This document shows positions 1,039 through 36,424 of a stretch of 64,000 bases of DNA, piece after piece. Both the position numbers and the translations under genes were made by a program. Origin of the DNA: Paenibacillus sp. JNUCC32 (GTDB lineage Bacteria > Bacillota > Bacilli > Paenibacillales > Paenibacillaceae); contig NZ_CP062260.1 of NCBI RefSeq assembly GCF_014863545.1, forward strand, positions 6,873,001 through 6,937,000. The letters are read 5' to 3'. Each line of letters opens with the position of its first letter. Positions within the stretch are counted from its first letter, which is position 1. The notes beneath the pieces are model-generated. The model was not told where the DNA came from, did no database searches, and saw only the letters and a list, made by a program, of their open reading frames with translations.

Positions 1039-3255
1039 TTGTCTGAATTAGAAGCTGTTGTGGAAGTAAATGAAGAACAGATTCGCAAGGAAGAATCGAA
1101 ACGGATCGTGAAGCAGATCGCGAAGGAGCTTCAATTGTCCGAGAAACAGGTGCGCACGACCGTTGAACTTCTGGATGAGGGCAATACCATACCGTTTATT
1201 GCGCGTTACCGTAAAGAAATGACAGGCGAACTGGATGAGAACCAATTGCGTGATATCGAAGAGCGGACAGGCTATTTGCGCAATTTGGAGGTCCGTAAGC
1301 GGGAAGTCATCCGCATCATAGAAGAGCAAGGCAAGCTGACGGAAGAGCTGAAAGCATCGATTACGGCGGCTGTGAAGCTGCAGGAAGTAGAAGATCTCTA
1401 CCGTCCGTATAAGCAAAAACGCAAGACGCGGGCGAGCGTCGCCAAGGAAAAGGGACTCGAGCCGCTGTCGGAGTGGATATGGTCGCAGCCGAAGCAGGCC
1501 GATGCGATGGTGGAGGCTGCGAAATATATCGATGAGGAGAAAGGCGTGGCTTCGGCGGAAGAGGCCCTCCAAGGCGCGATGGATATATTGGCGGAGAACA
1601 TCGCCGATGATGCAGCCGTTCGTTCCTGGGTACGCCGGTTCAGCCTGGATCATGGCATTTTGACGTCGGAGGCAAAGGATACCGAAGCGGAATCCGTGTA
1701 CGAGAACTATTACAATTACCGGGAATTGGCGAAGAAAATGCCGCCGCATCGGATACTGGCCATTAACCGGGGCGAGCGCGAGAACATATTGAAGGTGGGG
1801 CTGGAGGTTCCTTCCGAATCCATACACGGGTATATCGGAAAGCAGGTGCTTAAAGGGCCGTCGGCCGTTTCGGACATTCTGACGGCGGTGATCGAGGACT
1901 CCTACAAGCGTCTCATAGCCCCATCGATAGAGCGCGAGGTGCGCGGGGAGTTGACGGAAAAAGGGGAGAACCAGGCGATCTCCATCTTTGCGGGGAATCT
2001 GCGCAGCTTGCTGCTGCAGCCGCCGGTGAAGGGGCGCCGCGTGCTGGGCGTCGATCCGGCTTACCGTACCGGATGTAAGCTTGCTGTAGTCGATGACACG
2101 GGCAAGCTGCTCGAGGTAGCCGTCACGTATCCGACGCCGCCGGCCAACAAGAAGCGGGAGGCTGCCGCGAAGTTCAAGGAGCTGATTGCGAAATACGGAA
2201 TCAAGCTCATTGTCATCGGGAACGGTACGGCATCCCGCGAAACGGAGCAGTTCGTAGCGGAAGAAGTCATTGCGGAGCTCGCCGACCCAGAGCTTGCTTA
2301 CCTCATCGTAAACGAAGCCGGGGCAAGCGTGTATTCGGCTTCGAAGCTGGCGCAGGAAGAGTTCCCGGATCTGGATGTGGCCGAGCGCAGCGCAGCCTCG
2401 ATTGCGCGCCGCGTGCAGGATCCGCTGGCCGAACTGGTGAAGATCGATCCGAAGTCGATCGGCGTGGGCCAATATCAGCATGACGTTACCCAGAAGCATC
2501 TGGAGGAAAGCTTGAAGGCCGTCGTGGAGTCCGCGGTGAACCATGTCGGGGTGGACGTGAATACGGCATCGCCATCGCTGCTCTCTTATGTGGCCGGCAT
2601 CAATGCCACCATTGCGAAAAATATCGTGAAGTACCGGGAAGAGAACGGGAAGTTTGTCAGCCGGAAGCAGCTCCAGAAGGTTCCGCGTCTCGGTGCCAAG
2701 ACCTATGAGCAGTGCGTGGGCTTCATGCGGATTTCGGAAGGCGAGAACATCCTGGATCGTACTCCGATTCACCCGGAATCCTATGCAGTGGTTGACCGTT
2801 TGTTCCAGGAGCTCCAGGTTGGCCTGGACAAGCTGGGAAGCAAGGAGCTGGCTGAGCTGCTGGATGCCCAGCAGCCGGAGAGCCTGGCCGTGAAGCTTGA
2901 GGTGGGCGTGCCGACGCTTCGCGATATTCTGGACAGCCTGCAGCGTCCGGGACGCGATCCGCGGGAGGAACTGCCGCTGCCGATTTTCCGCCAGGACGTG
3001 CTGAAGATCGAGGATCTTGTGCCGGGAATGGAGCTTCAGGGAACGGTACGCAATGTCATCGATTTCGGCGCCTTTGTCGATATCGGCATCAAGAGCGACG
3101 GCCTGGTGCATATCTCCCAGCTGAGCGATGGATTTGTTAAACATCCGATGGATGTCGTCTCCGTGGGGGATAACGTGACCGTTTGGGTGCTGAACGTGGA
3201 TTTGAAGAAGGGGCGCGTCGGATTGACGATGCGCAAGCCGAAAGACCAAGGATAG
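1039..3255 (+). CDS. tex: Tex-family RNA-binding transcription accessory protein
   Basis: Tex (YdcI in Bacillus) is a cytoplasmic nucleic-acid-binding protein linked to transcription and stress survival; its exact role is unsettled. The 738-residue length is typical. The order of domains is visible: helical Tex N-terminal region (about 15-200), a YqgF/RNase H-like fold (RRVLGVDPAYRTGCKLAVVDD begins near 333), helix-hairpin-helix region (about 495-560, VNTASPSLLSYVAGI), and a C-terminal S1 domain (about 660-730, GTVRNVIDFGAFVDIG). The start is TTG at 1039 after GAAAGAGGGA; no in-frame ATG fits the family N-terminus better. The neighbourhood ndoA-tex-cmpA-sprT is the conserved Bacillales order. 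Confidence 0.95.
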   Translation: MSELEAVVEVNEEQIRKEESKRIVKQIAKELQLSEKQVRTTVELLDEGNTIPFIARYRKEMTGELDENQLRDIEERTGYLRNLEVRKREVIRIIEEQGKLTEELKASITAAVKLQEVEDLYRPYKQKRKTRASVAKEKGLEPLSEWIWSQPKQADAMVEAAKYIDEEKGVASAEEALQGAMDILAENIADDAAVRSWVRRFSLDHGILTSEAKDTEAESVYENYYNYRELAKKMPPHRILAINRGERENILKVGLEVPSESIHGYIGKQVLKGPSAVSDILTAVIEDSYKRLIAPSIEREVRGELTEKGENQAISIFAGNLRSLLLQPPVKGRRVLGVDPAYRTGCKLAVVDDTGKLLEVAVTYPTPPANKKREAAAKFKELIAKYGIKLIVIGNGTASRETEQFVAEEVIAELADPELAYLIVNEAGASVYSASKLAQEEFPDLDVAERSAASIARRVQDPLAELVKIDPKSIGVGQYQHDVTQKHLEESLKAVVESAVNHVGVDVNTASPSLLSYVAGINATIAKNIVKYREENGKFVSRKQLQKVPRLGAKTYEQCVGFMRISEGENILDRTPIHPESYAVVDRLFQELQVGLDKLGSKELAELLDAQQPESLAVKLEVGVPTLRDILDSLQRPGRDPREELPLPIFRQDVLKIEDLVPGMELQGTVRNVIDFGAFVDIGIKSDGLVHISQLSDGFVKHPMDVVSVGDNVTVWVLNVDLKKGRVGLTMRKPKDQG

Positions 3256-3270
3256 AACTAAAATAAGCTA

Positions 3271-3316
3271 AAAAAGAGCCGTATTCTCCTTCTGGGAGAA
3301 ACGGCTCTTTTTTTGG
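3271..3316 (+). terminator. Intrinsic terminator after tex
   Basis: Long stem AGAGCCGTATTCTCC / GGGAGAAACGGCTCT around a short TTCT loop, followed by a run of T. It ends the tex transcript. Confidence 0.9.
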
Positions 3317-3460
3317 GTTCTTTTTTTCATCATGGGCTGGATCGACTGCGAATAGAGTTTATTCTGGAGGAAGGTTTAGTCATGACTCAGCTTTAGAAGC
3401 AGGACGTTTTTATCGTAAGCATGTATGTTGCGATATACTGCGCCAGCTTAAACGATCGGC

Positions 3461-4021
3461 CTATTTCTCAGGCTCTGACTGCTGCTTTTTCTTCGCCCGA
3501 AAACGTCTGACCTTCATCAGATTGCCGCACATTTTATCATCGCAATAACGTTTGGAGCGGTTCCGCGTGTCATCGTAATACACCCAGAGACAATCCGGAT
3601 TGGTGCAGATGCGAAATCGAGTCAACTCGCCTTGCTCGATGGCTTGCGCAAAGGAGCCGGCGATCTCGGCAGCGGCTGCTTGCAGGCCTGGATTTTGCGG
3701 TATATAAGAAAGTACCCCTTTTTGATCCTCTTCGATCTTGAGCTGCCGAATGACCGGCCCTGTCGCCATCCAGCGGTTCAATTCCTCTACTTGCTGGCGG
3801 GAAGGGAGGGTACCTGCAACGATGCGCTGAACGCATAATCGCAGGAAGGATCGGAGCTGCCGGAGAAGTTCCAGTTCATCCGAAGTCAGCGGAACGGCGA
3901 TGTGGAGCTCATGCTCGCTAATAAATTCAGTGAGCCAATCCTCCCGGGCGAGCCGGTCCTCGGATCGGCCGCTGCCTCTCCAGTCATGCCATTCGCTGTT
4001 TATAAAATCATCCCATAACAT
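3461..4021 (-). CDS. CGNR zinc-finger / ABATE-domain putative regulator
   Basis: A 186-residue protein with an N-terminal ABATE-type domain and a C-terminal CGNR zinc finger, a family proposed to be stress-related transcription regulators. The zinc-finger part is clear: CTNPDCLWVYYDDTRNRSKR, then the cysteine pair YCDDKMCGN, then a basic tail (KVRRFRAKKKQQ). The start chosen is the ATG at 4021 (MLWDDFINSEWHDW) because AGAAAGGA lies 8 nt upstream; two earlier in-frame ATGs (4048, 4030) lack a spaced RBS. It is transcribed away from the DinB gene, and an 8-bp inverted repeat lies in the shared promoter region (4053-4084). The regulatory role is inferred from the family, not shown by the sequence. 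Confidence 0.8.
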   Translation of the reverse strand: MLWDDFINSEWHDWRGSGRSEDRLAREDWLTEFISEHELHIAVPLTSDELELLRQLRSFLRLCVQRIVAGTLPSRQQVEELNRWMATGPVIRQLKIEEDQKGVLSYIPQNPGLQAAAAEIAGSFAQAIEQGELTRFRICTNPDCLWVYYDDTRNRSKRYCDDKMCGNLMKVRRFRAKKKQQSEPEK

Positions 4022-30871: not shown

Positions 30872-32731
30872 ATGTTCGGATTAAAGGCGGATTTTATGCA
30901 GAACGGCGGAACGATCATGGTGCTGGACCGGGATGAAGGGATCCAGTCAACAGAACTGAATCATGTGCAGCTGGGCATGATCCGTTCTTCGAGAATCCCG
31001 CACTTTTTGAAGCTGCATATGAAAGAAGTCGATTACAAAGTAACCTTGGAATATGATATCACCGGCAAAAAGATGCTGTCTCAGGCATTGAAGAGCGAGC
31101 GCATGACGTTGACCGAGTACTATGGGCTGCTGCTGCAGATCGCTACCGCATTGGAGGACAGCAGGCTGTATATGCTTCAACCCGAGAATTACATACTTCA
31201 TGAGGATTTTCTGTTTGTTGAAGGCTCCCTGCATCTTGGCACATTATATTTAACCTATGTTCCCCTTGCCGTTAATGAGACAAGCAGTAACCGTCTCCCT
31301 GTAACGCTTAAGGAACTTATGACAAGGCTTCTCTTATCGGTCTCGGAGCTGAAAGGAGGAGGGATACAAGCATTGATGACCTTCTGCAGTGAACAGAGCT
31401 TCAGTTTGCCGGGACTTAAGCGGCTTGTCATTGAACTGCTTGCAGGAGAAGATGGTGAAAGCGATCAAGCAGGAACGCAAGCGAAGATGGCAGTGCCTGC
31501 ACATGTGAATGAAAGATTGCCCTATACCGATAATCCCTCAAACAGCAGCGTCTCCAGGACTGCCTTCTCATTTGCAGAGCCGGCTCACAGCCGGAGTGCG
31601 GCATTGCAGACGGAGAATGACGGCAACACGGATAAACAGAGTTTAATTCGAAGCCTGACGGAACGTACCAACGAGATGTTTGGGAAAAGCGGCCGAAACG
31701 AAGAAGGTAATTCTCACGCCGGTCGCACCCCATCAGGTCTTCCTGCGTGGTCATCTGGCACAGATGATTCAAGTCTTGATGAAGCGGAGCATGGCAGGTC
31801 TTCGCCGGTTCGGACTTATATTTTGCTAGGATGTTTGCTCGCCGCAGCGGGAGCTTGGAGAATGTTGTACATGAATCAACCGGGTCCGCTGATGTTGGGG
31901 CTATCGGTAGGGATTACGATTCTGCTTGCCGTGATCGCTTGGCTCGGCTACACGGGCAAACTCCGGCTGCTCCCACGGAGAACGGAGGATTGGTCCGGTT
32001 CATTGCCCGTGTTTGAATCCACAGAGCTGAGTCCGCAAGAGCATGCCAAGTGGAAGTCCGTCCCGCGTTTTGAGGCAGATCCCTTATCAGGTCTTCTTAC
32101 GGGAAGACAGGCAGCGGACTCAGGGAAAGCGGCAGAAGCAGAGCTTGGTGAGGGGAATGAGCATTGGAGATGGCAGGTTCCTAAATCTCCATTTAACCTT
32201 GAGCGGGATCAGCCTTCAGCGGGATCTTCCGTACAGTCTTTTCGGGACCAGGCTTTTTCGCGTTCTCCTAACGCCGGGGCAGGAGATTCTTATAGGGAAG
32301 AAGGGGATTATTATGCCCAGCTGTCCCAACGGACGGAGGTGCTTTCGTCCTCTGGTGGTGGGGGAGCTACCGTGCTGTTAAGTCCAGAGACCGCCGTTCG
32401 TCCGCCCGGACACCATTCGGCCAGGGACTATCTTGAGCTTACCGAACCGAATGCAGCCGTCCCGAAGCGAATTGAATTGCATCAGCCCCATTTCATCATC
32501 GGCCGCTCTCCCGACGTCGCCCAATTTGTAGCTGAAGGTGTGGGAACTTCACGGGCACATGTCGAGCTCTCTCGCGAAAGCGGTGGATACGTCCTGAAGG
32601 ATCTGGGTTCCAGAAACGGTACAATGTTGAAGGGAGAATCCATGGTGCCTTATAAAGAATACCCTTTGATGGAAGGGGATGCCTTTATTATTGCCGGATG
32701 GACGTTTACCCTGCGCAGGGGGGGATATTAA
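30872..32731 (+). CDS. DUF6382/FHA-domain membrane protein of the tad cluster
   Basis: 619 residues. The N-terminal ~190 residues (GLKADFMQNGGTIMVLDRD ... LQPENYILHEDFLFVEG) match the DUF6382 region found with FHA domains in Bacillota; a disordered Ser/Gly/Glu region follows; two helices (YILLGCLLAAAGAWRML and LMLGLSVGITILLAVIAWLG, about 312-350) cross the membrane; the C-terminal FHA domain (about 535-610) has HFIIGRSPD, GTSRAHVEL and DLGSRNGTML, the phosphothreonine-binding residues. It suggests Ser/Thr-kinase-dependent control of pilus assembly. RBS TAGGAGGCGG. Last gene of the cluster; terminator 32810. Confidence 0.83.
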   Translation: MFGLKADFMQNGGTIMVLDRDEGIQSTELNHVQLGMIRSSRIPHFLKLHMKEVDYKVTLEYDITGKKMLSQALKSERMTLTEYYGLLLQIATALEDSRLYMLQPENYILHEDFLFVEGSLHLGTLYLTYVPLAVNETSSNRLPVTLKELMTRLLLSVSELKGGGIQALMTFCSEQSFSLPGLKRLVIELLAGEDGESDQAGTQAKMAVPAHVNERLPYTDNPSNSSVSRTAFSFAEPAHSRSAALQTENDGNTDKQSLIRSLTERTNEMFGKSGRNEEGNSHAGRTPSGLPAWSSGTDDSSLDEAEHGRSSPVRTYILLGCLLAAAGAWRMLYMNQPGPLMLGLSVGITILLAVIAWLGYTGKLRLLPRRTEDWSGSLPVFESTELSPQEHAKWKSVPRFEADPLSGLLTGRQAADSGKAAEAELGEGNEHWRWQVPKSPFNLERDQPSAGSSVQSFRDQAFSRSPNAGAGDSYREEGDYYAQLSQRTEVLSSSGGGGATVLLSPETAVRPPGHHSARDYLELTEPNAAVPKRIELHQPHFIIGRSPDVAQFVAEGVGTSRAHVELSRESGGYVLKDLGSRNGTMLKGESMVPYKEYPLMEGDAFIIAGWTFTLRRGGY

Positions 32732-32809
32732 TACGGGATTATTATAGTAGAAGTAAGATTTGCGAAGCCATTATTCTATGAAGTTTAGAGGGAATTCGGA
32801 TTATTGCAG

Positions 32810-32857
32810 AAAACCAAAGGTGTACCCTAATTTTTAGAGGGGCCTTTGGTTTTTTAT
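32810..32857 (+). terminator. Intrinsic terminator after the tad cluster
   Basis: AAAACCAAAGG pairs with CCTTTGGTTTT around a loop of about 22 nt, then TTTTATTTTT. It separates the pilus operon from the A+T-rich islet. Confidence 0.8.
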
Positions 32858-32917
32858 TTTTACTAGATCTATAAAAAACATCTGGTATGATAATTATGGT
32901 AAAATGTACCGATTAAC

Positions 32918-32923
32918 TATAAT
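32918..32923 (+). promoter_or_regulatory. Candidate -10 element of the A+T-rich islet
   Basis: Perfect TATAAT at 32918-32923, 45 bp before the first gene of the islet. The -35 region 17 bp upstream (TATGGT) is poor. Confidence 0.35.
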
Positions 32924-32967
32924 TTTAAGGCGAGATAATAATACTTTAATGAGAGGACAAGAGGATT

Positions 32968-33363
32968 TTGCATAGGAAAATTAAAAGCAACTTTTTTTAC
33001 TTGGCTGCAGGAATATATCTAGGTATTGCAATAGTAGCATTTATTCCATGGATTCAGATTGACGCAAAAATTACAGCATATACAAGTATCATCGCATTAT
33101 TTATAACAATTTATGACTCATCTAAGGTTGGCCTAAAAATAGCTGCTACAGAAGGGGATTCACGCAAGCAAAGAATCCAGTATGTTTTTACGTTAGTTAT
33201 GAAAGCCTTCATGATAATTTCGCCATTTGCCCTCTTGTACTGGATTAATTATGAGGACGATGAAGCAGTCATAACGAGAATAAGCAATTACGTGACTTTT
33301 GCTGCGATTGGGGTTGTATTTTTTACTAGAGGCATGGAATTAAAAAAATCAAGTGAACGATAA
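32968..33363 (+). CDS. Small four-helix membrane protein of unknown function
   Basis: 131 residues, not recognised. Four predicted membrane helices: NFFYLAAGIYLGIAIVAFIPW, AYTSIIALFITIYDSS, FTLVMKAFMIISPFALLYWI and ISNYVTFAAIGVVFFTRGM. Charged loops with short Lys-rich ends suggest both termini are cytoplasmic. TTG start at 32968, 10 nt after GAGAGGA. Composition is plainly more A+T-rich than the flanking genes, as in the next two genes, so the three may have arrived together. It resembles small effector-like membrane proteins in accessory loci only in general build; no function is claimed. Confidence 0.65.
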   Translation: MHRKIKSNFFYLAAGIYLGIAIVAFIPWIQIDAKITAYTSIIALFITIYDSSKVGLKIAATEGDSRKQRIQYVFTLVMKAFMIISPFALLYWINYEDDEAVITRISNYVTFAAIGVVFFTRGMELKKSSER

Positions 33364-33417
33364 CTCAAATTAAATCCAGTATTGCAATTCTTTTATCAAT
33401 CATTAAAAGGAGCAAAC

Positions 33418-34158
33418 ATGAAAAAGGACGACTTTGGCAACCGAATGAAGGGTTACGAAAACATTTTTAGACAAACGCTTCCTCAGAGACTTCCAGTGAT
33501 TATTCGTATAGATGGTTCACATTTCCATACATTTACTCGTGGAATGATAAAACCGTTTGATGAGGTACTAATTCAGGCTTTTTGGGAGACGTGTAAATAC
33601 TTAGCGCAAAATATTATGGGTTGTAAGTTGATCTACCATCAAAGTGATGAAATATCTATTCTGCTGACCAATTATGATAAGTTAACAACGCAGTCTTGGT
33701 TTGAAAATAATCTACAAAAAATGGTTTCAGTGTCTGCTTCAATGGCTACTGCAAAGTTCAATGAGGTTATACAAAAAGCCTTTCCCGACAAGCCGCTCGC
33801 CACATTTGATAGCAGAGCTTGGGTACTGCCTCATGATGAGGTAGCGAACTATTTTCTTTGGAGACAGCAGGACGCAACCAAAAACAGCATTTCGATGGTT
33901 GCTCAGGCAAGCTTTCCACATAAGGAGTTACAGGGATTAGATGGAAAGAAACTTCAGGACAAGTTATTTCTCGAAAAAGGTGTAAATTGGAACGATCTGC
34001 CTATTTGGCAAAAACGCGGAGCGTGCATTACAAAGCAGTACTATAAAAAAGGAGAGGCGCTTCGGAGCAAGTGGGATGTTGATTTTAATACACCGATTTT
34101 TAGTCAGAATAGAGAGTACATAAATCAGTACGTTTATTTATCAAAGGATGAAAAATAA
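33418..34158 (+). CDS. Thg1-like protein (3'-5' RNA polymerase, tRNA repair)
   Basis: 246 residues homologous to tRNA-His guanylyltransferase. Bacterial Thg1-like proteins add nucleotides to RNA 5' ends in the 3'-5' direction, restoring truncated tRNAs. The two-metal catalytic residues are intact: Asp32 in VIIRIDGSHFHTFTR and Asp77/Glu78 in YHQSDEISIL, matching Asp29, Asp76 and Glu77 of human THG1. Downstream TFDSRAWVLPHDEVANYFLW and KNSISMVAQASF are also family-typical. ATG 33418 follows AAAGGAG at 7 nt. A+T-rich composition suggests transfer. Its stop overlaps the following kinase start (TAATG), so the two are translationally coupled. Confidence 0.9.
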   Translation: MKKDDFGNRMKGYENIFRQTLPQRLPVIIRIDGSHFHTFTRGMIKPFDEVLIQAFWETCKYLAQNIMGCKLIYHQSDEISILLTNYDKLTTQSWFENNLQKMVSVSASMATAKFNEVIQKAFPDKPLATFDSRAWVLPHDEVANYFLWRQQDATKNSISMVAQASFPHKELQGLDGKKLQDKLFLEKGVNWNDLPIWQKRGACITKQYYKKGEALRSKWDVDFNTPIFSQNREYINQYVYLSKDEK

Positions 34159-34601
34159 TGGAGTGTGTCATTTTCATTGGGATTCAAGCTTCTGGAAAAT
34201 CAACATTTTATAAAGAAAAGTTTTTCAAAACTCATATGAGAATAAACCTTGATATGTTGCGGACAAGGCATCGTGAGAATGTTTTTCTTGAAGCATCAAT
34301 CAGTACTAGTCTGCCGTTTGTAATTGATAATACGAATCCAACAATGGATGAACGAAAAAAATATATCGAATTAGGTAAAAAACATAGGTATAAGATCGTG
34401 GGTTATTACTTTGAACCGAATTATGATTTATCTTATGCACGTAACGAACAGAGACAAGGAAAAGATAAGATTCCTGAGGTTGGAATCAAAAGTACACTGA
34501 AGATGTTGCAAACTCCTTACTATGATGAGGGTTTTGATGAATTGTATTTGGTGCGGTCACTTAATGAAGGATTTGAAGTCGAAGAAATGAAAATGAAATG
34601 A
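34158..34601 (+). CDS. P-loop kinase, polynucleotide-kinase-like (AAA_33)
   Basis: 147 residues. P-loop FIGIQASGKSTFYKE (Gly8 to Ser15), DxD-like LDMLRTRHRENV, a strand/loop PFVIDNTNPTMDERKKYIE typical of T4 PNK/PNKP-related kinases, and a lid with NEQRQGKDKIPE, with YYFEPNYDLSYARN before it. The family phosphorylates nucleic-acid 5'-OH ends or small molecules; substrate cannot be told from sequence. The ATG overlaps the Thg1-like stop by 1 bp, so a joint role in RNA 5'-end repair is the natural inference. It is A+T-rich like its neighbours. No phosphatase or ligase is adjacent. Confidence 0.82.
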   Translation: MECVIFIGIQASGKSTFYKEKFFKTHMRINLDMLRTRHRENVFLEASISTSLPFVIDNTNPTMDERKKYIELGKKHRYKIVGYYFEPNYDLSYARNEQRQGKDKIPEVGIKSTLKMLQTPYYDEGFDELYLVRSLNEGFEVEEMKMK

Positions 34602-34687
34602 GTCTTTCAACTTTTTGAATATATCCCCCATAGATAAAGGTTTATTACATAGGATTTAATTTCTGGAGATGAAGGAGAATGATCAAT

Positions 34688-35863
34688 GTGATAAAAAAAG
34701 CCTTATTATGGTCACCCTTGTTTGTGGTGTTATGGTTACTGCTTCCGAGCCCATCCCATGCCGCCACTTTATTTGTAAAAGCAAACGTGGAATATGGGCC
34801 ATTCAAATCGCCCTTCTCTTTGGAAGACCCGATAATGATGAAGGAGGGGAGAGTATTGCTTCCTCTGCGGGAGGTCGGCGATATATTGGGTTTGAAGGTA
34901 CATTGGAATCAAGGACAGCAAAGGGCGAGTCTGTATGGCGTAAATCTTGAAATGACCCTGCAGCCAGGATCCGATGCTGCTTACGTGAACAATGAAAAGA
35001 AAAAACTCCAGACTTCTGCGGAAATCATCAACGGAAAGCTGTACATTCCTCTTCGGTTTGTTGCCGAGACCGCGAGTGAGGAAGTGAGGTGGAAATCCGA
35101 TACGAAGACGTTGTCTGTTGGCAGCAGTTACGCTATGGGGACAGATAAGGGCATTACATTTTGGCTTAACCGGAAGAATGGTGAATTCTATCAAGCCATC
35201 GGAAACAGGACGCCGTCGCTCATTGGAAAATTGGATATCCTGGTAGAGGAGCTGAGACATCTCCAAGTGGAAAGACTGTCCGACAACAGTTCGTACGTGC
35301 GACTATATGAAGCAGTAGGGATGTCCGCATTAGGTAAGAGATCCGGCCAGGTTTTTGTGAAGGACGGACAGATCATAAAGGAATCGCACTTTGGATTCAT
35401 GGGATATTATCCGGATACCAACACGTATAGCCTGTACGATCTGCAAGGAAAAGTATTGTTCACGGATGGCAAGCATGCAGAGTTTCTGAATCATGAAGGA
35501 GAAGTGGTGGCTTCATTCGATCTAAGGGAGCTTACTGGAAAAAAAGACGAGGTCTATATGATCGAATACGTTACGGATTCGTACATGATCTTGCGGGAAT
35601 ATGGTACGCAGCATCTGATACTCTATCATCGAATGCGTGAAATCACCGCCTATGTTCATGAGATGCTATCGCTTCCTCTATCAGAGAAAAAATTCCTCGA
35701 GGAAGTTGCCTTGGACAGAAATAATGAACCGGACCGTGAGCTTATCATTCGCTTCAATAAACAAGAGGAGAATACGCTTTTGTTCCTATATAAGAGCAAA
35801 ACAACAGGCCAAGTTGATTTGTATCCCTTCAATTTAGCAGACTTAAAAAACGAATCCCCCTAA
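34688..35863 (+). CDS. Copper-amine-oxidase-N 'stalk' domain surface protein
   Basis: 391 residues with a signal peptide (ALLWSPLFVVLWLLLPSPSHA). Then a copper-amine-oxidase N-terminal-like domain, duplicated beta-rich element with GRVLLPLREVGDILGLKVHW and NGKLYIPLRFVAETASEEVRW (residues about 50-140), which is a non-catalytic stalk module common in Paenibacillus surface proteins. The C-terminal half is of unknown fold. GTG start at 34688 is chosen because AAGGAG stands 10 nt upstream; ATG 34679 is too close. It lies 86 bp after the kinase; composition returns toward the local average here, so it belongs to the host backbone. Confidence 0.75.
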   Translation: MIKKALLWSPLFVVLWLLLPSPSHAATLFVKANVEYGPFKSPFSLEDPIMMKEGRVLLPLREVGDILGLKVHWNQGQQRASLYGVNLEMTLQPGSDAAYVNNEKKKLQTSAEIINGKLYIPLRFVAETASEEVRWKSDTKTLSVGSSYAMGTDKGITFWLNRKNGEFYQAIGNRTPSLIGKLDILVEELRHLQVERLSDNSSYVRLYEAVGMSALGKRSGQVFVKDGQIIKESHFGFMGYYPDTNTYSLYDLQGKVLFTDGKHAEFLNHEGEVVASFDLRELTGKKDEVYMIEYVTDSYMILREYGTQHLILYHRMREITAYVHEMLSLPLSEKKFLEEVALDRNNEPDRELIIRFNKQEENTLLFLYKSKTTGQVDLYPFNLADLKNESP

Positions 35864-35906
35864 TCCTCTATAAGAGGACTTGGGGGAAATGACCAAACGG
35901 CTTGGT
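35852..35906 (+). terminator. Double hairpin after the stalk-domain gene
   Basis: TCCCCC/GGGGGA with inner TCCTC/GAGGA (about 35853-35888) and then GACCAAACGGCTTGGTC. There is no long T-run, so termination is uncertain. Confidence 0.4.
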
Positions 35907-35950
35907 CGTTCATTTAAGACGAGTACCGCCATTCCGTATTAGGGTGTTCA

Positions 35951-36424
35951 TTACTTATTGATCAAATGCTGATAAGGCTTGTAGTCGATTTCCTTCTTCT
36001 GGAGGAAGTTCATCAGGAATTTGTAATCCCGCTTCGGCGTAGCCACGATGTAACCTTTGATGCAGTGATCCCGGGTGACTTCGGTTGCGCCGGATTCGAC
36101 GGCGATTTTGCCGATTTCGGCTGCAATGGAGTGTTTGGCGATATCCCGGAACGGTCCCGGAACAGGCTGCACCAGCTCGTCCAGAAATGCTTTGGATTCA
36201 TCCGTCCAGAGCGGGCGGCTTCGCTCTACCCAGTAATTTTGCCAATCGAGCTTCGATTTGCCGTCGGCCTTGGGAAGCACTTTCAGAAACTTGCGGAACA
36301 TGAAAAATCCGCCGATGCCCATCAGCCCGAGCATGACCCATCCCCAGAAGGCAATGGAGTTCATGAACCATGACGGCGGCGCACTGGACGACAAATAGCC
36401 CATGACGGCCCCTGTGCTCTTCAT
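35951..36424 (-). CDS. DUF2621-family membrane protein (YneK-like)
   Basis: 157 residues. The N-terminal membrane segment is AFWGWVMLGLMGIGGFFMFR; the rest is cytoplasmic and shows LDWQNYWVERSRPLWTDESK and VTRDHCIKGYIVATPKRDY, which is related to the small protochlorophyllide-reductase-like C-terminal domain and typical of the DUF2621 family (B. subtilis YneK). ATG 36424 with an AGGTGATAT region upstream. It is divergent from nfo. The function of the family is not established. Confidence 0.72.
   Translation of the reverse strand: MKSTGAVMGYLSSSAPPSWFMNSIAFWGWVMLGLMGIGGFFMFRKFLKVLPKADGKSKLDWQNYWVERSRPLWTDESKAFLDELVQPVPGPFRDIAKHSIAAEIGKIAVESGATEVTRDHCIKGYIVATPKRDYKFLMNFLQKKEIDYKPYQHLINK

Follow-up and report, generated by a model that had tools for sequence, protein, structure and literature searches.

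Anantharaman, Iyer and Aravind (2010, PMC2904730) reported that the most persistent neighbor of Thg1 in bacteria is a kinase of the polynucleotide kinase (PNK) family and predicted that such a kinase could make Thg1's substrate; in the sections of that paper available to us, some Thg1–PNK neighborhoods also include a MACRO protein or an RNA ligase. The Thg1-like protein (TLP) of Bacillus thuringiensis, BtTLP, acts on 5′-monophosphorylated tRNA, which it activates with ATP or GTP, and has been termed a 5′-end repair enzyme; in the accessible parts of that work it was examined without a partner (PMC3701042). Later literature on the pair, including the available portions of PMC6471195 and PMC7824862, yielded no experiment on this kinase in a search that left out most subscription journals. 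Here, we describe a TLP gene followed directly by a gene for a PNK-like kinase in Paenibacillus sp. JNUCC32 (RefSeq assembly GCF_014863545.1, contig NZ_CP062260.1, positions 6,873,001 to 6,937,000). This stretch of 64,000 nucleotides is called the window below, and positions are given within it. The two families that are adjacent here, and their predicted division of labor, are those of the 2010 neighborhood. Both the pairing and the mechanism are therefore already published as a prediction, which our survey strengthens and amends. What it adds to the consulted sections of PMC2904730 is the frequency of the pair, its opposite gene orders, and repeated loss of Thg1 with the kinase kept. This last observation, an apparent one-way dependence between the two genes, is the most useful new point. 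The genes and their probable ribosome-binding sites are as follows.

33406 to 33412, plus strand: AAAGGAG, probable ribosome-binding site of the TLP gene, read from the sequence, 6–12 nt upstream of the ATG
33418 to 34158, plus strand: TLP of the 3′–5′ RNA polymerase family, 246 aa (PF04446, phrog_4717, BtTLP 4kgk, residue count)
34143 to 34148, plus strand: AAAGGA in the last TLP codons, probable ribosome-binding site of the kinase gene, read from the sequence
34158 to 34601, plus strand: PNK-like P-loop kinase, 147 aa, with P-loop, D32, DNTN at residues 57–60, R95 and R99

The first gene runs from an ATG at 33418 to a TAA stop at 34156–34158. A first-pass annotation, made by a model from the DNA letters alone, had read its product as a Thg1-like polymerase with every catalytic carboxylate, and this reading is borne out. 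PF04446 matches at 3.5e-32 (111.5 bits against a curated cut-off of 29.2), PHROG 4717 matches at 2.7e-114, and all three metal-binding carboxylates (D32, D77, and E78) are present when counted on the translation. The C-terminal domain model Thg1C (PF14413) reaches 18.2 bits, below its cut-off of 26.3; nevertheless, the alignment with BtTLP (PDB 4kgk), the closest solved relative, spans residues 4–243 at 429 bits. BtTLP has the same catalytic carboxylates.

The second gene starts with an ATG at 34158 and encodes a P-loop (G8-x4-GKS) and D57-N58-T59-N60. Its product matches AAA_33 at 2.1e-11 (44.8 bits against a cut-off of 27), and its best matches by both sequence profile and predicted fold are the kinase domains of mammalian PNKP, with which it shares the P-loop and DNTNP motif in the alignment, and of C. 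thermocellum Pnkp, with which it has the P-loop in common. Unlike either of these, the window protein is a lone kinase with no phosphatase or ligase domain. Small-molecule kinases have the same fold, and some outscore T4 PNK against the window kinase; overall, similarity to solved PNKs in profile and fold ranks above that to other kinases. NCBIfam returned four weak matches, the first two being polynucleotide kinase models and the third a tRNA-Sec kinase. TIGR04075, the equivalog for bacterial Pnkp, scored 35.5 bits against a cut-off of 750 and covered only profile positions 10–160 of 851, which leaves the protein outside that equivalog. The PNK-like character that the first-pass annotation had seen in the P-loop and DNTN motif is thus supported by profile and predicted fold. 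The residues G8, G13, K14, S/T15, D32, D57-N58-T59, R95, and R99 are kept in all 48 paired and all 29 unpaired distinct Bacilli kinases (the latter being 25 from 26 family genomes, two of which have identical kinases, plus that of locus L048 and three beside frameshifted TLPs). From the PNK literature, we take D32 to be the acidic residue after strand 2, and R95 and R99 to be the lid arginines. A loose Shine–Dalgarno-like pattern, counted without a chance control, precedes 47 of the 48 paired and 27 of the 29 unpaired kinases; in pairs, it falls within the final Thg1 codons.

The adjacency survey proposed by the first-pass annotation was run, and its refuting outcome, that the two families are seldom neighbors in other genomes, did not arise. 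Neighboring genes were taken as the longest open reading frames (ORFs) of at least 90 aa, independently of annotation. The Thg1 model matches 37 of the 394 genomes of the window's family, Paenibacillaceae, and the kinase lies directly downstream on the same strand in 35 of them (one, G088, with a frameshifted Thg1), an adjacency far beyond chance. Together with pairs in Bacteroidota, Deinococcus, and Embleya that have the opposite order, these loci agree with the accessible description in PMC2904730 in being adjacent and on one strand. The two family exceptions (G654 and G655) carry the TLP on contigs of approximately 141 kb with many small ORFs, phage- or plasmid-like in character, and no kinase was found in the surrounding 10.4 kb. 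Kinase matches were obtained in 66 of the 394 family genomes, or 64 after setting aside G655 and G727, whose matches are weak (near 1e-3). Of 100 genomes of the genus, eight carry Thg1 and 16 the kinase (one of them a fragment); every one of the eight has both. A draw of 398 genomes from the phylum contained Thg1 in three, all in the window's family. Scanning contigs with short TLP peptides as seeds returned 48 loci, 39 of which have a kinase match (a fragment in L046); the nine without one are all contigs of metagenome-assembled genomes (MAGs). In the protein search, one 314-aa TLP (P0208) was listed also with a PF04255 domain, which we take to be DUF433.

Loss of the pair looks one-sided, with the kinase outliving the TLP. 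Thg1 is present in 35 of the 64 family genomes with the kinase and gives no match in the other 29; three of the latter hold only kinase fragments (G028, G577, and G729) and 26 hold full-length kinases. Upstream of 13 of these 26 kinases, tblastn recovers Thg1 remnants, some of them weak. Ten of the 13 remnants include part of the last 35 TLP codons, perhaps because the kinase's Shine–Dalgarno pattern sits there. Of the 13 loci where tblastn finds no remnant, L154, L155, and L189 still have the TLP end sequence AAGGATGA, and in L190 the kinase carries the opening nine codons of the TLP as an in-frame fusion. Twelve related Paenibacillus loci have common flanking clusters; seven of them hold an intact Thg1, and in the other five it is broken or missing. 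No intact Thg1 beside a broken kinase was seen among the loci examined. Counted by hand, there are 11 remnant layouts, or 12 if L169 and L174 are separate. With equal per-base breakage (738 versus 441 bases) and the events taken as independent, the chance of 11 or 12 to 0 is about 0.004–0.006. The kinase tree requires at least 12 changes when only remnants are counted, 15 with frameshifts, and 21 with all cases (20 in a quick tree), counts that are rough given 148 columns, 84 rows, and 41 open forks. Assembly errors are possible in the frameshifted TLPs of L032, L037, and L038. A count of five changes on the TLP tree wrongly takes L058 as kinase-less; L058 and L208 are one and the same, from genome G432, where the kinase is present.

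Two of the truncated loci are alike in layout. Although their kinases stand apart in the tree, L169 and L174 each retain exactly TLP residues 127–245, 361 bases upstream of the kinase, and no N-terminal part of the TLP was found in 8.4 kb. At L174, an RNA ligase gene (PF09414, 9e-24; L174 positions 3062–3943, minus strand) directly follows the kinase.

Unpaired kinases show signs of purifying selection in codon comparisons. The ratio of nonsynonymous to synonymous substitution rates (dN/dS) ranges from 0.07 to 0.24 with a median of 0.09 over 12 comparisons, which draw on nine loci in three groups and of which 10 fall within one group. Comparisons that plausibly follow a single shared loss gave 0.125 for L163–L166 (shared remnant), and 0.24 for L154–L155 and 0.084 for L187–L188 (shared flanks). 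The median is 0.116 for paired kinases (100 comparisons, duplicates included) and 0.047 for the TLP where it is present (57 comparisons), which puts the TLP under tighter constraint than the kinase. Because the kinase survives loss of the TLP, it appears to have a selected role of its own. Among the 25 matches listed of 81, we found no other recurrent partner family of the unpaired kinases. Two points limit this account of loss and retention. In 13 of the 26 unpaired kinases, tblastn finds no remnant and loss is not proven, and the remaining dN/dS comparisons include divergence that predates the loss.

The TLP is common without the kinase on mobile elements. No relative of the kinase was found at 51 of 52 viral-contig TLP loci (up to 3 kb on each side) or within 4–5 kb at 9 of 11 plasmid TLP loci, these being drawn from 22 plasmid records with a TLP match. 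TLPs occur in 126 of 50,697 phage records, in which the kinase gave one partial match only (54% of the query). Searching the viral contigs with the kinase's own sequence confirmed nothing, and no gene annotated as PNK lies near the TLP of phage Eldridge (166 kb) within a 49-kb stretch. Viral contig L066, on which no such kinase was found within 3 kb, encodes a TLP that matches BtTLP without a difference over 240 columns, so the best-studied bacterial TLP stands on the kinase-less side. Bacillus licheniformis, B. velezensis, Sporosarcina, and Lederbergia also have TLPs, on contigs of megabase size that are left out of the neighbor counts. With the kinase-less TLPs of viral contigs and plasmids on one side and 26 family genomes that keep only the full-length kinase on the other, the two-gene repair module put forward in the first-pass annotation is not supported as a closed unit. 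Within the family, dependence instead looks one-way: outside phage- or plasmid-like contigs, the TLP is found only beside the kinase.

The pairs most distant from the window, in Bacteroidota, Deinococcus, Embleya, and one viral contig, place the kinase first. In the phylum of G500, a Saprospirales MAG, which we take to be Bacteroidota, Thg1 occurs in 3 of 247 genomes, including G500 itself, which has no kinase. The kinase occurs at E < 1e-60 in two of the 247, both times adjoining Thg1, and weak kinase matches were seen in five more genomes, two of them in ORFs longer than 860 aa. The kinase overlaps the Thg1 ORF by 11 nt in the Bacteroidota pair L199 and by 4 nt on a Deinococcus plasmid, and it lies upstream of the TLP on an Embleya plasmid. 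In Thiodictyon, a related TLP overlaps an RlaP gene. A distant relative of the kinase is also encoded on two further Streptomyces-type plasmids (L239 and L240), where the 4 kb around it showed no TLP. The Deinococcus locus (L059, 4525–9784) comprises kinase, TLP, a DUF705 protein, Hen1, and two RlaP nucleotidyltransferases; a single small gene runs on the opposite strand. It is possibly a larger RNA-repair cluster. The viral contig (L106, 1424–3807) holds a kinase, an ORF of 80 aa, and a tandem pair of TLPs. The first TLP has lost two of the three carboxylates (RIDG to QVTG, SDE to SNE), and the second keeps them.

A TLP tree of 121 rows unites the 49 Bacilli TLPs linked to the kinase in a single clade (SH-aLRT 92, below the mark of 95) that nests among phage and plasmid TLPs and excludes BtTLP. 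The TLPs of Bacteroidota, Deinococcus, Embleya, and Thiodictyon form a separate, distant clade. The approximately unbiased (AU) test rejected a grouping of the Bacteroidota TLPs with those of the kinase-linked Bacilli (p 4e-99, for a group named once the tree was known, in a tree with long branches). Because the TLP clades are separate and the gene orders opposite, the two families have probably been joined more than once, and such repeated joining is good evidence for a functional link between them. We also considered a swap of partners on the basis of incongruence in the kinase tree, and rejected it. A quick kinase tree had put the Bacteroidota kinases among the Bacilli; a constrained tree grouping Bacteroidota, Deinococcus, and Streptomyces-type kinases fitted better, with a log-likelihood 16.6 higher and p-AU 0.77. 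As the constrained tree scores better, the kinase tree is not at odds with the split among TLPs. Identity in the Bacteroidota comparison is unequal, at 53–57% for the kinase and about 30% for the TLP. Separate assembly of the pair is thus probable from the TLP tree, the gene order, and the unequal identity, with long branches in play.

We consider an RNA 5′-kinase with an optional 3′–5′ repair polymerase, linked by one-way dependence, to be the best explanation of these observations, with a probability of roughly 0.58. The kinase would phosphorylate 5′-OH ends of RNA, which we infer to be its substrate. Where present, the TLP would act on the same RNA, activating the resulting 5′-phosphate ends with ATP or GTP and re-adding lost 5′ nucleotides in the 3′–5′ direction against the paired strand, for example where a damaged tRNA has lost part of its acceptor stem. 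Because refilling would be limited to templated positions, the TLP would suit short losses from the 5′ acceptor strand and not anticodon cuts. The kinase's own role would probably be to heal 5′-OH ends for ligases or for 5′-phosphate-dependent decay. Candidates for its other clients are RNA ligases, such as that at L174, or decay enzymes that prefer a 5′-phosphate. RNase J prefers 5′-phosphate ends. More tentatively, the protein may be a stand-alone 5′-OH RNA kinase of Paenibacillus-like bacteria with a conserved function of its own, and the TLP an optional part, taken up from phages or plasmids, that makes repairable ends out of the kinase's products. In at least one viral contig (L106), such a unit would have grown to include, beside the kinase, a TLP lacking two catalytic carboxylates and an intact one.

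Other explanations draw on much of the same evidence. The kinase might serve mainly RNA decay or ligation, converting 5′-OH to 5′-phosphate for 5′-phosphate-dependent exonucleases or ATP-dependent RNA ligases, with the TLP a late addition of little joint effect. One-sided loss would follow readily, the RNA ligase adjoining the L174 kinase fits, and the tree position of the kinase-linked Bacilli TLPs, inside a set of phage and plasmid TLPs that lack the kinase, looks like later capture. Against it, the TLP is more tightly constrained than the kinase where present, and 35 of the 37 family TLPs have the kinase adjacent; we consider this explanation unlikely. It is more improbable still that a small molecule is the kinase's substrate and the TLP an unrelated enzyme on the same transcript. 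In favor of this reading, AAA_33 covers a broad range of kinases, the fold is common to small-molecule kinases, some of which rank above T4 PNK, and 26 of 394 genomes have the kinase without the TLP. Against this, PNKP and Pnkp are the best matches in sequence and fold, the pairing recurs in the opposite order with different TLP lineages, and RNA-repair genes lie near distant pairs such as that of Deinococcus (Hen1 and RlaP).

A role in conflict, in which the pair would be induced by infection and repair tRNA cut by host or phage ribonucleases, would account for the patchy distribution of Thg1 in the genus and phylum, for its presence in phage records, and for the viral contig with a kinase and two TLPs. 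The first-pass annotation had named a transferred accessory or defence-related system as what the A+T-rich islet would suggest. The TLP, the kinase, and a nearby 131-aa ORF had no PADLOC match at E 0.1; at most 4 of the 61 nearest neighbors of pairs at L001–L033 match PADLOC, so that a defence island is not supported; and the islet that holds the window pair lies between FHA-domain and copper-amine-oxidase-N genes. We give this explanation a low probability. Addition of G-1 to tRNA-His, which the name of the family and the work of Thg1 in eukaryotes would suggest, is very improbable. A pattern search of the window's genome found two tRNA-His genes (others may be missed), and because both encode G-1, as well as C73, its addition does not appear to be the need. 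An earlier pattern had matched a region that holds no tRNA.

The cellular role of bacterial TLPs can be tested with natural genomes that hold the pair, only the kinase, or only the TLP, and the 12 flank-sharing Paenibacillus loci are a ready natural comparison. Should the kinase supply the substrate of the TLP, this would define a minimal 5′-end repair path; if it does not, the kinase's own function becomes a new question. One-way dependence, if true, would provide a rule for how a reverse polymerase obtains its substrates in bacteria.

The junction of the two genes and their surroundings contain the following features.

34156 to 34160, plus strand: TAATG stop/start overlap of 1 nt, unique to the window among 48 Bacilli pairs
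32732 to 34678, no strand: A+T-rich islet with the 131-aa ORF, the TLP, and the kinase (G+C per segment, composition)
32968 to 33363, plus strand: 131-aa ORF with a TTG start and hydrophobic stretches by eye, within the islet

Translational coupling through the TAATG overlap had been part of the first-pass annotation. The overlap is real; as a conserved feature it is rejected, being present in 1 of the 48 distinct intact Bacilli pairs. Gaps in these pairs are 2 nt in 30, 1 nt in eight, and 3 nt in six, and the remainder are single cases of −1 (the window), 12, 27, and 60 nt. Close spacing is therefore conserved and the overlap is not. The islet is likewise real: its genes have a G+C of 0.34–0.39, and the genes on either side reach 0.52 and 0.45. 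As a sign of recent transfer it is weak evidence because, in 45 relatives, the G+C of the pair follows that of the flanks (r 0.83), with a mean 3.4 points lower and a lower value in 41 of the 45. The 131-aa ORF has no Pfam match and is probably not part of the TLP–kinase unit, since among 254 loci it is present only in the window's own two.

Around the window pair, a Pfam scan of four flanking ORFs found no MACRO-domain or RNA-ligase gene, and none for Hen1, RlaP, or Pnkp, in contrast to the Hen1 and RlaP genes near the Deinococcus pair. Rfam had no match at 32000–36000, and promoter-like sites at the locus were no more frequent than in shuffled sequence. RtcB was not found in the window's own genome in a search whose control was positive in 9 of 14 genomes. 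Among the 61 nearest proteins at L001–L033, three match Imm33, one RtcB, one AbiD, and two MzaA.
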